A stretch of DNA of 64,000 nucleotides from an uncultured Synechococcus sp. (GTDB taxonomy: Bacteria; Cyanobacteriota; Cyanobacteriia; PCC-6307; Cyanobiaceae), in contig CAJWYF010000003.1 in assembly GCA_913049535.1 (NCBI GenBank), positions 1-64,000 of the forward strand, in the 5' to 3' direction. Position 1 is the stretch's first letter. Each line of letters begins with the position of its first letter. A program made the translations under genes and the position numbers. The notes beneath the pieces were generated by a model that was not told the DNA's origin, ran no database searches, and worked only from the letters and a program-made list of their open reading frames with translations. This document shows positions 38,764 to 45,121 of this stretch, in pieces.

Positions 38764-39933
38764 TCAGCGCACCGCTGCCAGGGCAGCCCCAAGGCCAGCG
38801 CGGACATCTTCCGGGTGCAGCTTGCCGTCGTGATCCGAGTCCAGTGCATCGAACACCGCGTCACTGCCCAGCCATTCCTCCCGGCAGATGCAGCCATCGC
38901 CATCGAGGTCGTTGAGTAGGAAGATCTCCTGGGCGGCATGGGCGAAGGCGGCGCCGCCTTCCAGCACAGCCATGCGGTGGGCCAGCTGGGCCTCGAGGGT
39001 TTCGATCGCCTTGGTGAAGCCCTGGATTCCTTCGGCGAGCTTTTCGTGCGCCATCTGGTCTTCTCCCATCATCTGCTCAAAGCTGGTGGCATTGATGCTC
39101 AGCTTGTCCACATCGGTGCTGGGGTTGGCCCCGTCGAGTTTGCGCACCAGGTTCCCCTCTTGATTGCGCAGCTGATCCAGCAGCTTGGGGGAGATCGTCA
39201 GCAGGTCACAGCCGGCCAGCTCAACGATTTCATCGACGTTGCGGAAGCTGGCACCCATGACCTCCGTGGTGTAGCCGTGAGCCTTGTAGTAGTTGAAGAT
39301 CTTGGTGACCGAGACCACGCCGGGGTCTTCCGGGCCGGGGTAGCTGTCGCGGCCGGTGCTCTTCTTGTACCAGTCGAGGATGCGACCGACGAAGGGGGAG
39401 ATCAGCGTGACGCCAGCCTCGGCGCAGGCAGCGGCCTGGGCGAAGCCGAACAGCAGCGTCAAGTTGCAGTGGATGCCTTCCTTCTCGAGGGCTTCAGCCG
39501 CTTTGATGCCCTCCCAGGTGGAGGCGATCTTGATCAGCACGCGCTCGTTGCTGATGCCGGCATCGTTATAAAGGCCGATGAGCTTGTGGGCCTTGGCGAT
39601 GGTGGCCTCGGTGTCGTAGCTCAGGCGAGCGTCGACCTCGGTGGAGACGCGGCCGGGAACGATCTTGAGGATTTCCTTGCCGAAATTGACGCAGATCTCA
39701 TCGAGCGCCTCGGTGACCACCTGCTCGGCAGGGGCGGTGGGACCGATGAGCTGACGGGAGGCCCGCAGCGTCTCATCAATCAGGCTTTGGTAAGCAGGAA
39801 TTTGAGCCGCCGCCAGGATCAGTGAGGGGTTCGTGGTGGCATCACGGGGTGTGAACTTCTCGATCGCTTGGAGATCGCCGGTGTCGGCGACCACCACGGT
39901 CATGCTGGACAGCTGCTCAAGCAAGGTGGCCAC
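38764..39933 (-). CDS. tal: Transaldolase with C-terminal EF-hand pair
   Basis: Transaldolase (389 aa) of the pentose phosphate/Calvin network. The Schiff-base Lys is in [19 protein letters not shown], and [10 protein letters not shown] and [20 protein letters not shown] are family blocks. Residues after about 330 form a separate calcium-binding tail with two EF-hand loops, at about 342-353 ([12 protein letters not shown]) and 365-376 ([12 protein letters not shown]). The tail suggests Ca2+ control of carbon flow, an inference. Convergent with the esterase-like gene. Confidence 0.95.
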
Positions 39934-40003: not shown

Positions 40004-41800
40004 TCAGTTCCGCTGCTTCCGGCTCGGGGGGATCCTCTCGATCACCAGCAGGGCTTCCATGATGCTCTTGGCGACTGGTGCCGCCACGGTGGAGCCATAG
40101 GCGTTCTCCCCCTGCGGTTCGTCCACCACCACCAGCACGACATAACGGGGCTCATCAATGGGGAGGTGAGCCACAAAACTGGTGATCAGAGCGCCTGGGA
40201 TGTAGACGCCATTGGCGGCTTTCTGCGCCGTGCCGGTTTTGCCGCCAATGCGGTAGCCGGCGATGCGTGCCTGCTGACCGCTGCCCTGTTGCACCACGCT
40301 TTCAAGCCAGGCGAGCACCTGGGAGCTGACGGCAGGGTCAAGCAGGGGTTGACGATGCGTCGGGCCAGGGCCGGCCAGGTCATCACCGCTGCGCAAGCCA
40401 CGGGTGATGTGGGGGCTCACCAGATGGCCACCGTTACTGAGCATGGCGTGCAACTGCAGCAGCTTGAGCGGCGTGAGGGCCAGACCCTGCCCAAAGGCGG
40501 CCGTGGCCGGCTCGATGGGATTGCCCGTGAACACACTGCGGCTCTTGAGCTGGCCGCTGACCGCACCAGGCAGGTCGGTGTCAGGGGCGGAGCCGACGCC
40601 AAGTCGTTCGAGCCATTCCCAGTAGCGCTCCGCCTTGAGCCGCTGCATGGCGCGCACCATGCCGACGTTGCTGGAGACCTGCAGCACCTTGGCCAGACCC
40701 ACCGTGCCATGGGCCACCTTGTCGTGGTTGTAGATCGGCCAGCCACTGATCACCAGGCTGCCCTTGTCCACCACCGTGCTGGCTGGGGTGAGGGCTTTCT
40801 CTTGAAGGGCGATGGCCAGATTGATGGGTTTGAGCGTGGAGCCCGGCTCATAGAGATCCTGCACCGACCACTCCCGGAACAGCCCGGGGGAGAACTCCCA
40901 GAATTCGTTGGGGTCGTAAGTGGGAACAGAGGCGAGGGCCAGCAATTCCCCATTGCGGGCATCCATCACCAGTGCCGCACCACGCTTGGCTGACCATTGC
41001 TGCACCTGGCGGGCCAGCTCCAGCTGGGCGACGCGCTGTAGCCGTGTATCCAGCGTCAGCTGCAGCCGCAGATCGTCGCGGTGCATTCGACCAGCGCCAA
41101 TGCCATCGGGAAGCGGCGTGCCATCTCCGCCTTTGCGAATCCCCAGCGCATGCTCCTGACTTTGCAGACGTTGGTTGAGGCTCAGTTCCAGTCCGGCCTG
41201 GGGCACCCGCTCGAGGTTGAGAAAGCCCAGCACGTTGGCGAACAGGCTCCCCTGGGGATAAACCCGCTGAGGTCCGTGCTCGAAGTCGATGCCATCGATG
41301 CCCAGCGCGCGCAAGCGGGTGGCCAGTGATGGCTCGACGTTGCTGCTGAGGCGGACCCCGGAGCGGTGCTGTCCCATGCGCTGCACCAGCTCGCTGGCCG
41401 GAACGCCCAGCAGTGGTGCCAGCTTGGCCGCCACTTCGGCTGTGCTGCGGCGGGTGGATGCCTGATCGCCTGGGAACCGGAAATAGCGGGGATGAGCCCA
41501 GACGGTGACGCGTTCTTCATCGATGGCCAGCAGCCGGCCGCGGCGATCAACGATCGTGCGCCGCCTCCCCAGTGGAGTACGGGTTTCGGTCTGGACCCGG
41601 CGTGCACGGGCCTCCAGTCGGGTGCCTTCGATGAGCTGCAGCCAGGCCAGTCGCAGGCCCAGTCCCCCCAAAGCCAGGGCCAGAAGCACCATCACGGTGA
41701 TCAGGCGACTGGCCGGCACGGGATGCAGTTGCAGCACCCGCTGCGTGCGGCGGGTCCCGCGCAGGGTGCGACCACGCTTAGCGGTGGGCATGCGGGTCAC
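40004..41800 (-). CDS. ftsI: Septal peptidoglycan transpeptidase FtsI (PBP3)
   Basis: A class B penicillin-binding protein (598 aa). One membrane helix (MVLLALALGGLGLRLAWLQL) is followed by the dimerisation domain and the transpeptidase. The active-site motifs are STLKPI (SxxK), SSNVG (SxN) and KTGTAQ (KTG). The N-terminal tail is strongly basic. It starts two bases after the stop of a small membrane protein that looks like FtsL. Confidence 0.94.
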   Translation of the reverse strand: MTRMPTAKRGRTLRGTRRTQRVLQLHPVPASRLITVMVLLALALGGLGLRLAWLQLIEGTRLEARARRVQTETRTPLGRRRTIVDRRGRLLAIDEERVTVWAHPRYFRFPGDQASTRRSTAEVAAKLAPLLGVPASELVQRMGQHRSGVRLSSNVEPSLATRLRALGIDGIDFEHGPQRVYPQGSLFANVLGFLNLERVPQAGLELSLNQRLQSQEHALGIRKGGDGTPLPDGIGAGRMHRDDLRLQLTLDTRLQRVAQLELARQVQQWSAKRGAALVMDARNGELLALASVPTYDPNEFWEFSPGLFREWSVQDLYEPGSTLKPINLAIALQEKALTPASTVVDKGSLVISGWPIYNHDKVAHGTVGLAKVLQVSSNVGMVRAMQRLKAERYWEWLERLGVGSAPDTDLPGAVSGQLKSRSVFTGNPIEPATAAFGQGLALTPLKLLQLHAMLSNGGHLVSPHITRGLRSGDDLAGPGPTHRQPLLDPAVSSQVLAWLESVVQQGSGQQARIAGYRIGGKTGTAQKAANGVYIPGALITSFVAHLPIDEPRYVVLVVVDEPQGENAYGSTVAAPVAKSIMEALLVIERIPPSRKQRN

Positions 41801-41802
41801 GC

Positions 41803-42333
41803 TCAGTACCCGCTCGCGATCAGTTCCAATTGGAGCGGCTGCTCAGCAGGACCGCCTGGGCTCTGCGCCGGAGGGCTGGGCATGAACAACAGGTCTTTGC
41901 TGCTGGCAGCCACCAAGGTGCCGGGGTGGCTGGCGCGGCTGAGGAAGTGTTGCTCCAGGGCCGAGCGGCTTTCCAGCACGCGATGCTCGAGCTCTTGGGC
42001 GGATTGAAGGTTGCGGAAATCCCGCCCCCAGCGGCCCTGCCAGTGAAGGGTTAGCCCCGCCAGGGCGAGAGCGGCAACGCCAGTAGCCAATAGAGCTCCA
42101 TCGGCCACGCGATGCAGTCCTGCCAACCAAGGGGCCTGGCGCTCGACCCGTCGCGCTGAAAGAGACCCCTGCAGCAATTCTAGCGAGCGTTTCTGGCGCT
42201 GAACCCGTCGCTGCGCCACCCGGCTGCGGCGATCGTTGAGGGAGACCTGCTTCGACCGTGTGGGGTCCGGGTGCTGCTGCAGGGGGACGGCAACCACCGG
42301 CTCTTGACCGCAGACGATGTGCCAGTGAACCAC
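41803..42333 (-). CDS. FtsL/DivIC-like membrane protein upstream of ftsI
   Basis: A 176-residue bitopic protein. Residues 1-72 are basic and cytoplasmic, about 76-97 form one membrane helix (GALLATGVAALALAGLTL), and about 104-130 a coiled-coil-like stretch (FRNLQSAQELEHRVLESRSA). It ends with SHPGTLVAASSKDLLFMPSP, which resembles the conserved post-coil segment of septum-initiator proteins. Topology, size and position immediately before ftsI match FtsL of other bacteria. Overall similarity is low, so the name is an inference. Confidence 0.65.
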   Translation of the reverse strand: MVHWHIVCGQEPVVAVPLQQHPDPTRSKQVSLNDRRSRVAQRRVQRQKRSLELLQGSLSARRVERQAPWLAGLHRVADGALLATGVAALALAGLTLHWQGRWGRDFRNLQSAQELEHRVLESRSALEQHFLSRASHPGTLVAASSKDLLFMPSPPAQSPGGPAEQPLQLELIASGY

Positions 42334-42355: not shown

Positions 42356-43732
42356 TTAGCTGCCCAGCAGCAGCAGATTCACAAAGGTGAGTCCATTCCA
42401 AAGGCCATGCATCGCCACGGAGCTGAACAAACGGCCCGTGCTCCAGCGCAACCAACCCAGGCCCACACCAAGGGCAAACAGCGGCGGTGCCTCGCTGAGG
42501 CTGAGGTGAGCCAGGGCGAAGACCAGGGCACTGACGCCAATGCCTGCCGGGATGCCCCAGCGGCGACCGACCACCGGCAGCAGAACGCCGCGGAACAGCA
42601 CTTCCTCAAACAATGGAGCCAGCACCGTTGCTGTGAAGGCCAAAAAGAGAATGGCGACGCCACTGCGGCCATTGAGCACCTCCTCCAGGAGTGGATTGCT
42701 GCCACCGGCATCAGGCCAGAAGCGCTCCACCAGCCAGCCAAGCAGGGCCACCAGCGGCAAGCTCATCAACAGGCCACGCAGGGCCTGCGGCCAGCACTGC
42801 CAGCTCGGCTGCCATTGCAGCCATCGCCCTTCGCCGGCAGGACGCTCGCGCAGCAGCAACGCCAGGACCCCCAGAGCTGGCAGGGCGGCGACGCTGTACA
42901 GGATCAGCACTTCCAAGGCCGCCCTCAGCGCTGGAGTCAAGCTGATGCCATCCAGGATCGTGCCCAGAATCGGCATGGCCAGCAGCGGTGTCACAAGGCC
43001 GCCGAGTACGACAAAGCCCCCCGCGATCAGCAGCACGGTTTCGGTGATCGTCAGATCCGGACCACGCAGCTCTGGGGCCACTGGCTGCTGCCTGCGCCAG
43101 CGTTTCCAGAGCTGCTGGAGCAGCAGAACCCCGCCGGCCAGCACACCGAAGAGCGGCAGGAGATTGACCAGCACCAGTCGCCAGCTGGCCCAGCGCAGCG
43201 TCGCTGTCGAGACGCAGGCATCAGCCGGCAGCTTCAGGGCATCACAGACCAGCAGCCGGTAGAGCGGCCGATCAGGCAGCGGTGGCAGGGGCTGCTGGTC
43301 CAGTTGCGGCGCCAGCAGCGTTTCGGCGAGGGGGCGCAGATCGGCTGGCCCGCTCTTGATGACGGTGTTGAGGTGCCGGCGCGACTGGTCCACCAGGCCC
43401 AGGCTGTCCTCCAGTAGCGCCTGGGCCAGGAGGCTGTCACTGCTGCCCGCTCGCGGGCTTTGCTGCAGGGTCCGCAGAAGTTGCTGTTCCGGCGGTACGG
43501 GGCCGGTGGGCAGGAGTTCACGGCCGCCGTCCCGTTCGGCCAGCACCTCCAGCTCCAACTGGCGTTGCTCCAGCACGTTGCCGACAGAGGGGCGTTCGAT
43601 GCTTTGGGCCAGCGAAAAGCCCCAGATCAACAGGGCGATGGCCAGGCTCAGCAGGGCCAGCAGGCTCAGCAGCGGTGCTGTTCGCCTGGTTGAGTCCCTG
43701 CCTGGCACTGCTGCACTCCTGTTGCAAGGCAT
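42356..43732 (-). CDS. CPBP family intramembrane metalloprotease
   Basis: A 458-residue membrane protein. The last 200 residues form the CPBP (Rce1-like) glutamic protease with APLFEEVLFRGVLLPVVG (EExxxR), FALAHLSL and MHGLWNGL motifs intact. The N-terminal half has a signal anchor (LLSLLALLSLAIALLIWGFS) and a soluble helical region not part of the family. ATG 43732 is used; an upstream in-frame ATG at 43858 lies inside the divergent gene. Substrate unknown. Confidence 0.88.
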   Translation of the reverse strand: MPCNRSAAVPGRDSTRRTAPLLSLLALLSLAIALLIWGFSLAQSIERPSVGNVLEQRQLELEVLAERDGGRELLPTGPVPPEQQLLRTLQQSPRAGSSDSLLAQALLEDSLGLVDQSRRHLNTVIKSGPADLRPLAETLLAPQLDQQPLPPLPDRPLYRLLVCDALKLPADACVSTATLRWASWRLVLVNLLPLFGVLAGGVLLLQQLWKRWRRQQPVAPELRGPDLTITETVLLIAGGFVVLGGLVTPLLAMPILGTILDGISLTPALRAALEVLILYSVAALPALGVLALLLRERPAGEGRWLQWQPSWQCWPQALRGLLMSLPLVALLGWLVERFWPDAGGSNPLLEEVLNGRSGVAILFLAFTATVLAPLFEEVLFRGVLLPVVGRRWGIPAGIGVSALVFALAHLSLSEAPPLFALGVGLGWLRWSTGRLFSSVAMHGLWNGLTFVNLLLLGS

Positions 43733-43792
43733 TGTCACTGCTGGCCGGGGCCAGGGTGCGTACGATGGCGCCCCGAACCGCGTAGACCCCCC

Positions 43793-45121
43793 TTGGCCAC
43801 GAGGATTTTGCTGGTGCGGCACGGGCTCAGCAGCTTCAACCAGGAAGGCCGTATCCAAGGTCGTGAGGATGCCTCCCAGCTCAGTGACGCCGGCTGTGAA
43901 CAGGCCGAACGCCTTGGGGATGCGCTCAAGGATGTGCCGCTCACCGCAGCCTTCTGCTCACCGCTGCAGCGGGCTCAGCGCACCGCGGAGTTACTGCTCA
44001 GTCGCCAGGGCAGCGGTGTGGCCCTCAACAGCACTGAACAGTTGCTTGAAATTGATCTCTCGCTGTGGAGCGGTCTGCTCCACAGCGAGGTGGCGCGGCT
44101 GCATCCGGAACAGGAGCGTCTCTGGCGCACCGCCCCCGATGCGCTGCAGCTGGAGCGCGCTGATGGCAGCAGCTACTTCCCAGTCCGTGACCTGCTGGTG
44201 CAGGCCCAGTCCTTCTGGGATGAGCTGCAACAGCGGTTTCCTCCTGAAGGAGATCACAGCGTCCTGGTGGTGGCCCACAACGGCATCCTGCGCTGTCTGT
44301 TGCTCGCGGCTCTGGGACTGCCCGCCAGTCACTTCAACCGCTACCGCATCAACAATGCCTCCCTGTCGGTTCTGAACCTCAAGAGCGGCGGTCAGGTTCA
44401 AATCGAGTCGCTCAACACCATTACCCACCTGGGGGAAAGCCTTCCATCACGCAAAAGCGGTCCACGCGTGTTGCTGGTGCGCCATGGCGAAACGAATTGG
44501 AACAAGGAAGGTCGCTTTCAAGGCCAGATCGATATTCCTCTCAACGAGCGAGGCTGGGCCCAAGCCGAAGCTGCCGGCAATTTCCTCAGTGATGTGGCCG
44601 TCGACCGGGCTTTCGCCAGCTCGCTGGCGCGCCCCCGGCAGACCGCTGAAGCGATCTTGAAGCAGCAGGCTGCCGATCTGCCGATCACCAGCTGCCCCGG
44701 CCTGGTGGAAATCGGTCACGGCGCCTGGGAAGGCTGCCTTGAGCAGGAGATCCGCGATGGCTGGCCTGAGCTGCTGGCGGCCTGGCAGAGCGAGCCCCAC
44801 ACCGTCGAGATGCCCGGTGAGGGTGGCGAGACGATTCAGCAGGTCTGGGAGCGCTCCGTTGCGGCCTGGAAGGAAATCATTGATGGCCTTGAGGATGGGG
44901 AGACCGCTCTGGTGGTTGCCCATGACGCCGTGAACAAGACCATCCTCTGCCACCTGCTTGGTCTTGGTCCGCAGGACATCTGGGCTGTCAAACAGGGCAA
45001 TGGTGGTGTGAGCGTCATCGATTACGCCCCCGGTGGTGAAGGCGACCATGTGATCGCCAGCCTCAACCTCACCGGCCATCTCGGTGGTGTGCTGGATCGC
45101 ACGGCAGCTGGCGCCCTGTGA
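43793..45121 (+). CDS. Tandem histidine phosphatase (two phosphoglycerate-mutase-like domains)
   Basis: A 442-residue protein with two complete histidine-phosphatase domains. Domain 1 (about 1-215) starts ILLVRHGLSSFNQEGRIQGR and ends VVAHNGILRCLL. Domain 2 (about 225-442) starts VLLVRHGETNWNKEGRFQGQ and ends VVAHDAVNKTILCHLLGL. Both keep the RHG nucleophile and the second His. The likely start is TTG at 43793. Such cyanobacterial double enzymes are annotated as phosphoglycerate mutases or phosphoserine phosphatases; the substrate is not proven. Stop overlaps the next GTG. Confidence 0.9.
   Translation: MATRILLVRHGLSSFNQEGRIQGREDASQLSDAGCEQAERLGDALKDVPLTAAFCSPLQRAQRTAELLLSRQGSGVALNSTEQLLEIDLSLWSGLLHSEVARLHPEQERLWRTAPDALQLERADGSSYFPVRDLLVQAQSFWDELQQRFPPEGDHSVLVVAHNGILRCLLLAALGLPASHFNRYRINNASLSVLNLKSGGQVQIESLNTITHLGESLPSRKSGPRVLLVRHGETNWNKEGRFQGQIDIPLNERGWAQAEAAGNFLSDVAVDRAFASSLARPRQTAEAILKQQAADLPITSCPGLVEIGHGAWEGCLEQEIRDGWPELLAAWQSEPHTVEMPGEGGETIQQVWERSVAAWKEIIDGLEDGETALVVAHDAVNKTILCHLLGLGPQDIWAVKQGNGGVSVIDYAPGGEGDHVIASLNLTGHLGGVLDRTAAGAL

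Follow-up and report, generated by a model that had tools for sequence, protein, structure and literature searches.

A probable cyanobacterial FtsL, encoded directly upstream of ftsI and ending in an invariant tyrosine

The gene that directly precedes ftsI in the 64,000-nucleotide stretch of Synechococcus DNA analyzed here (the window) is, with high confidence, the cyanobacterial orthologue of ftsL, in a divergent and previously unannotated form. This identification follows from synteny combined with profile homology established through the non-photosynthetic sister classes of the phylum, which provide the decisive bridge. FtsL and FtsB have both been listed as absent from cyanobacteria (PMC7766704, PMC4748335), and their reported absence left the recruitment and activation of FtsWI unexplained for a whole photosynthetic class. 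A study of the dcw genes described nearly all of them as dispersed in cyanobacteria and named murC-murB and ftsQ-ftsZ as the sole remaining doublets (PMC8871954), a list from which the ftsL-ftsI pair appears to have gone unrecognized. One genome paper does tabulate ftsL for Prochlorothrix, but since ftsA and ZipA are listed alongside it, we set this entry aside as an automatic category list rather than a prior report. No paper was found in the open-licence literature on sll1832/1834, alr0717/0719, slr1601 or the Synpcc7942 neighbours.

According to the listing of open reading frames, the full frame occupies positions 41803-42333 of the minus strand and encodes 176 residues from a GTG start; the plus-strand reading of the same interval is interrupted by stops. 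The preliminary description had reported this 176-residue frame without its strand. The frame is present, although its first 12 codons are likely to be untranslated, because a close relative (L003) carries an in-frame stop within them and has a 164-residue frame beginning MVAVP, a point that serves as the start in many relatives too and corresponds in the window to the GTG at 42297. The true start is thus probably that GTG, giving a protein of 164 rather than 176 residues. The other end of the frame lies, as had been described, two bases before ftsI, with the TGA stop at 41803-41805 followed by 2 nt and the ftsI GTG at 41800. Both strands carry overlapping frames in this GC-rich region, as might be expected of a spurious or mis-called one; we give that reading next to no credence, as the protein and its position are conserved class-wide with full-length alignment, and every synonymous codon is used at its conserved tail. 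The features of the region are collected in Table 1.

Table 1. Coordinates of the putative ftsL, its predicted parts and its two neighbours in the window (residues numbered on the 176-residue frame)
Feature	Position	Strand	Basis
Putative cyanobacterial ftsL at its most likely extent (164 aa)	41803..42297	-	GTG start 42297, stop TGA 41803-41805
Upstream in-frame extension of 12 codons, probably untranslated	42298..42333	-	Stop in close relative L003
Basic N-terminal part, predicted cytoplasmic, residues 13-75	42109..42297	-	14 K/R vs 4 D/E
Predicted single transmembrane segment, residues ~76-97	42043..42108	-	Hydropathy and helix in AlphaFold2 model
Predicted periplasmic coil running on from the transmembrane helix, residues 98-134	41932..42042	-	AlphaFold2 helix 68-134 and conserved columns
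Post-coil block, residues 135-155, SHPGTLVAASSKDLLFMPSPP	41869..41931	-	HHalign alignment
C-terminal tail Ser-Gly-Tyr-COOH	41806..41814	-	Terminal Tyr invariant in family
ftsI, encoding the 598-aa septal class B penicillin-binding protein (PBP_dimer and Transpeptidase)	40004..41800	-	PF00905 E=8e-65, PF03717 E=9.6e-9
CPBP/Rce1-like intramembrane protease gene, directly upstream of ftsL	42356..43858	-	PF02517 E=2.3e-19

The architecture first read from the sequence, consisting of a basic N-terminus, one helix at residues 76-97, a coil and the post-coil segment SHPGTLVAASSKDLLFMPSP, was recovered in all its parts by hydropathy, the count of basic residues and AlphaFold2 modelling. The model places an uninterrupted helix at residues 68-134 with pLDDT mostly between 91 and 97, while the tail is of low confidence and unstructured. 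Together with the positive-inside N-terminus, this predicts the topology of FtsL, in which an N-in protein crosses the membrane through one helix that runs on into a periplasmic coil. Within the coil, the near-invariant residues W102 and L109 are seven positions apart, i.e. at heptad spacing, and the post-coil block follows the family pattern GLVpp.P..lIFLpPpP. The family thus shares with FtsL of other bacteria the single N-in transmembrane helix leading into a coil, a short post-coil strand and weak similarity to FtsL profiles. Unlike them, it has a long, variable and basic N-terminus, and the IFL strand is followed by another 24-41 residues, which form a variable, proline-rich linker and a tail whose last residue is always tyrosine. 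Searches of the PDB by sequence and with Foldseek retrieved no FtsL and nothing useful, as is expected for a long helix.

The neighbourhood of the gene is that of ftsL in other bacteria such as E. coli and P. aeruginosa (models TIGR02209, NF053549 and PF04999), where it stands before ftsI and, where the cluster survives, after rsmH. The ftsI of the window is the closest relative, and orthologue, of the ftsI found in the dcw cluster of the sister classes; the second class B penicillin-binding protein of this genome (C41) is just 31% identical. The preliminary description had named a lack of conservation next to ftsI in related genomes as one ground for rejecting its reading; ftsI in fact adjoins the gene downstream, in the same orientation, at 135 of the 145 distinct loci and likewise at 80/80 named loci in a Nostocales alignment. 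Four loci within the Cyanobacteriia (L211, L223, L227 and L224) retain rsmH upstream and ftsI downstream, while in L045/L159, also of this class, the gene still follows rsmH and ftsI has moved away. In the sister classes, the FtsL-type gene likewise lies between rsmH and ftsI, the rsmH of one such locus (L142) being confirmed by PF01795 at 2.7e-91. The order rsmH-[gene]-ftsI is the canonical ftsL slot.

A profile built for the family (A1) and run over 291 genomes of the phylum found one copy in 127 of them, which by count from the listing are 127 of the 141 Cyanobacteriia and none of the 150 sister-class genomes. Twelve of the 14 Cyanobacteriia missed belong to a single genus that resembles Prochlorococcus in genome size (1.6-1.7 Mb); in all four of these that were examined, ftsI is directly preceded by a divergent copy whose product ends in RGY. 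Another miss (G098) has its ftsI close to a contig end. G162 (locus L116), in which neither the A1 profile nor inspection of the region upstream of ftsI revealed an FtsL, is the only such unexplained genome of the class, and may represent a fragmented assembly or a real loss. The near-universal, single-copy presence of the gene in the class would fit an essential role. We note that in a small-genome sister family (f43; L136-L141), most genomes examined are without an FtsL-type gene before ftsI and DivIC is present.

Direct comparison with curated families was less telling. The window protein matched no family of Pfam or NCBIfam, and the profile search against the FtsL and DivIC families suggested at the outset gave no direct match above cut-off for any single member of the family; what it did yield were weak FtsL matches of the consensus and of some members. 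PF04999 was above cut-off in 0/194 genomes of the phylum, an absence that is weak evidence because, of 14 control genomes, just one reached the same cut-off. The best single member scored E=3.7e-4 against TIGR02209 (ftsL_broad), and the best NCBIfam match of the family consensus was NF053549 (FtsL_Actino; E=7e-4, 19.4 of 55 bits). When 61 diverse members were scanned against 18,950 NCBIfam models, FtsL_Actino was the most frequent weak match (9 members), followed by T2SS_GspM (5) and ftsL_broad (4). The curated FtsL cut-off, below which the whole family falls, serves for annotation and does not define an FtsL. A mean-field direct coupling analysis of 135 pairs of the protein with FtsI, underpowered at an Neff of about 100, returned noise, and even the within-protein pairs were not helix-like, so that it was discarded as evidence.

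The bridge to FtsL is provided by the sister-class proteins encoded upstream of ftsI (L126-L135, L142), which combine a transmembrane helix and a coil with a typical post-coil block (e.g. DRVENQATSKLKMVPRDESVFMALP, IDRKAGWLGMRQPEEVVYIKRP) and for which FtsL models make up most of the leading NCBIfam matches (down to 5e-7 for single members and 2.4e-10 for the consensus). HHalign matched the cyanobacterial family to these proteins almost end to end, at 95% and E=3e-8 over 83 columns spanning the transmembrane helix, coil and post-coil block, and still at 94% when the tail was removed; segment-shuffled controls gave at most 9.4% and a reversed alignment 1.8%. Taken separately, the window's subgroup reached 56% and the remainder of the class 95%, the two being joined by a 99.9% match to each other. 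Besides their rsmH and ftsI neighbours and an aromatic C-terminus, the two sets share a YxHTV/YGxTV motif after the transmembrane helix, and the cyanobacterial lIFLPP(P) falls onto VVYIPLP within the sister 'LGL..pEEVVYIPLP', so that 'EEVVYIPLP' matches 'lIFLPPP'. They differ in that the sister proteins keep the canonical post-coil I..A..LG block and their consensus scores with both FtsL and DivIC models, whereas the cyanobacterial family has a reduced version of the I..A..LGM helix that FtsL typically carries between coil and strand. The adjacency to ftsI, the homologue between rsmH and ftsI in the sister classes and the rsmH-ftsL-ftsI order still intact in some Cyanobacteriia all support the FtsL equivalence proposed earlier.

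FtsL and FtsB/DivIC share the same topology and are hard to distinguish by sequence, and the sister FtsL-type proteins also match the DivIC model PF04977 (consensus 8.5e-10), which raises the question of whether the gene might instead encode the FtsB/DivIC equivalent, pairing with another FtsL. We consider this improbable: HHalign relates the cyanobacterial family to the sister DivIC at 1.8%, compared with 95% for the protein encoded between rsmH and ftsI, the sister genomes encode a separate DivIC above cut-off elsewhere, and a scan of the window protein with PF04977 gave no match. The Cyanobacteriia, moreover, have a widespread family of their own that leans towards DivIC, that of slr1601 (NF052344, 'putative cell division protein'). 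It occurs in 52 of 60 relatives and in this genome (G000:C6:13523-13756, L245, among the loci L233-L252), has the FtsB topology of a transmembrane helix and coil with a post-coil block resembling FDpqqarsvMQEQ...VVW, and aligned to DivIC at 34.6% (HHalign), the shuffled maximum being 16.3%. Both DivIC/FtsB (PF04977) and the slr1601 family resemble the product of the ftsI-adjacent gene in being bitopic coiled-coil proteins, as expected of a dimer partner, but they are encoded by a separate gene at another locus and display no profile similarity to the cyanobacterial ftsL family. Judged by sequence, the slr1601 family is the probable cyanobacterial FtsB/DivIC and partner of FtsL, an assignment weaker than that of FtsL itself.

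The gene might also specify a cyanobacteria-specific factor of the ftsI operon that is unrelated to FtsL and resembles it by topology alone, whether through convergence or displacement. The lack of a direct match above any curated cut-off, the reduced post-coil helix and the additional conserved C-terminal tyrosine are what such a factor would lead one to expect. Yet transmembrane helix, coil and post-coil block align with the sister FtsL-type protein of the same locus far above shuffled controls, the aromatic C-terminus is common to the sister proteins, and the rsmH-X-ftsI order is intact within the Cyanobacteriia, all of which make an unrelated origin very improbable. CyDiv (All2320), an Anabaena protein proposed to be FtsB/DivIC-like and a late part of the divisome, also combines a transmembrane helix with a coil; it is ruled out as the same gene by its published description, being reported only in filamentous cyanobacteria, monocistronic, co-directional with glnB and of opposite predicted orientation (PMC4748335).

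If the gene is ftsL, as we propose, its mode of action may be sketched from solved FtsWIQBL complexes and work in other bacteria. In the FtsWIQBL complex of P. aeruginosa, FtsL contacts FtsB along its whole length, packs on the pedestal of FtsI and completes the FtsQ/FtsB sheet with its last strand (PMC7614612); in E. coli, the cytoplasmic part of FtsL recruits FtsW, and its AWI region activates FtsWI via FtsI (PMC7733951). By analogy, cyanobacterial FtsL would pair through its transmembrane helix and coil with an FtsB/DivIC-type partner, for which the slr1601 family is the best candidate; its post-coil strand would join the FtsQ/FtsB sheet, and its coil, lying against the FtsI pedestal, would allow FtsWI to be recruited and activated at the septum. 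What the sequences establish is the structure of the gene, its conservation and synteny, and its homology to an FtsL-type protein of the canonical slot, besides a predicted topology; the partners of FtsL, its septal location, its effect on FtsWI and any function of the terminal tyrosine are inferred. If FtsL occurs throughout the cyanobacteria and probably has its FtsB partner in the slr1601 family, the core of the cyanobacterial divisome becomes conventional and directly testable; in model strains, ftsL is expected at or near ftsI (sll1833, Synpcc7942_0482, alr0718), and with a profile made for the family, many genomes could be annotated correctly.

The C-terminal tyrosine is a new feature for FtsL, of which we found no description in the open-licence literature. 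It terminates 145/145 distinct sequences, preceded by glycine in 119, alanine in 23, asparagine in 2 and serine in 1, the tail mostly taking the form P-x-Gly/Ala-Tyr-COOH with proline the commonest residue at -4; positional entropy is zero at -1 and exceeds 2.4 bits from -3 inward. A nucleotide signal for the translation of ftsI was ruled out as the reason for the terminal GY: all four glycine and both tyrosine codons occur, and the tail is kept in the 10 loci that have no ftsI next to the gene, which together argue for selection at the protein level. An aromatic residue also closes each of the 11 sister proteins that were recovered (GF, EGF, GY, AY or AW), so that the aromatic tail is probably older than the oxygenic cyanobacteria. 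A free, conserved C-terminal aromatic residue on a flexible periplasmic linker suggests what is probably a short docking motif. To our knowledge, most cyanobacteria are without the FtsN/FtsA trigger. More tentatively, P-x-(Gly/Ala)-Tyr-COOH could be a periplasmic docking signal, received by FtsI, FtsW, FtsQ or a PDZ-type partner, that acts as an essential, class-wide switch for septal synthesis and perhaps replaces this trigger. The residue is easily mutated.

Three observations concern the surroundings of the pair. The CPBP/Rce1-like protease gene is a conserved same-strand neighbour, standing upstream in 63 loci that belong mostly to the family of the window, and a functional link of this protease to FtsL turnover is possible. 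An intact ftsL-ftsI pair occurs in a record of Nostoc carneum NIES-2107 titled plasmid1 (L306), which may be explained either by an essential division pair residing on a large replicon or by a mislabelled record. Downstream of ftsI in the window, positions 38764-39933 of the minus strand encode a transaldolase-like protein with a C-terminal stretch resembling two EF-hand calcium-binding loops.
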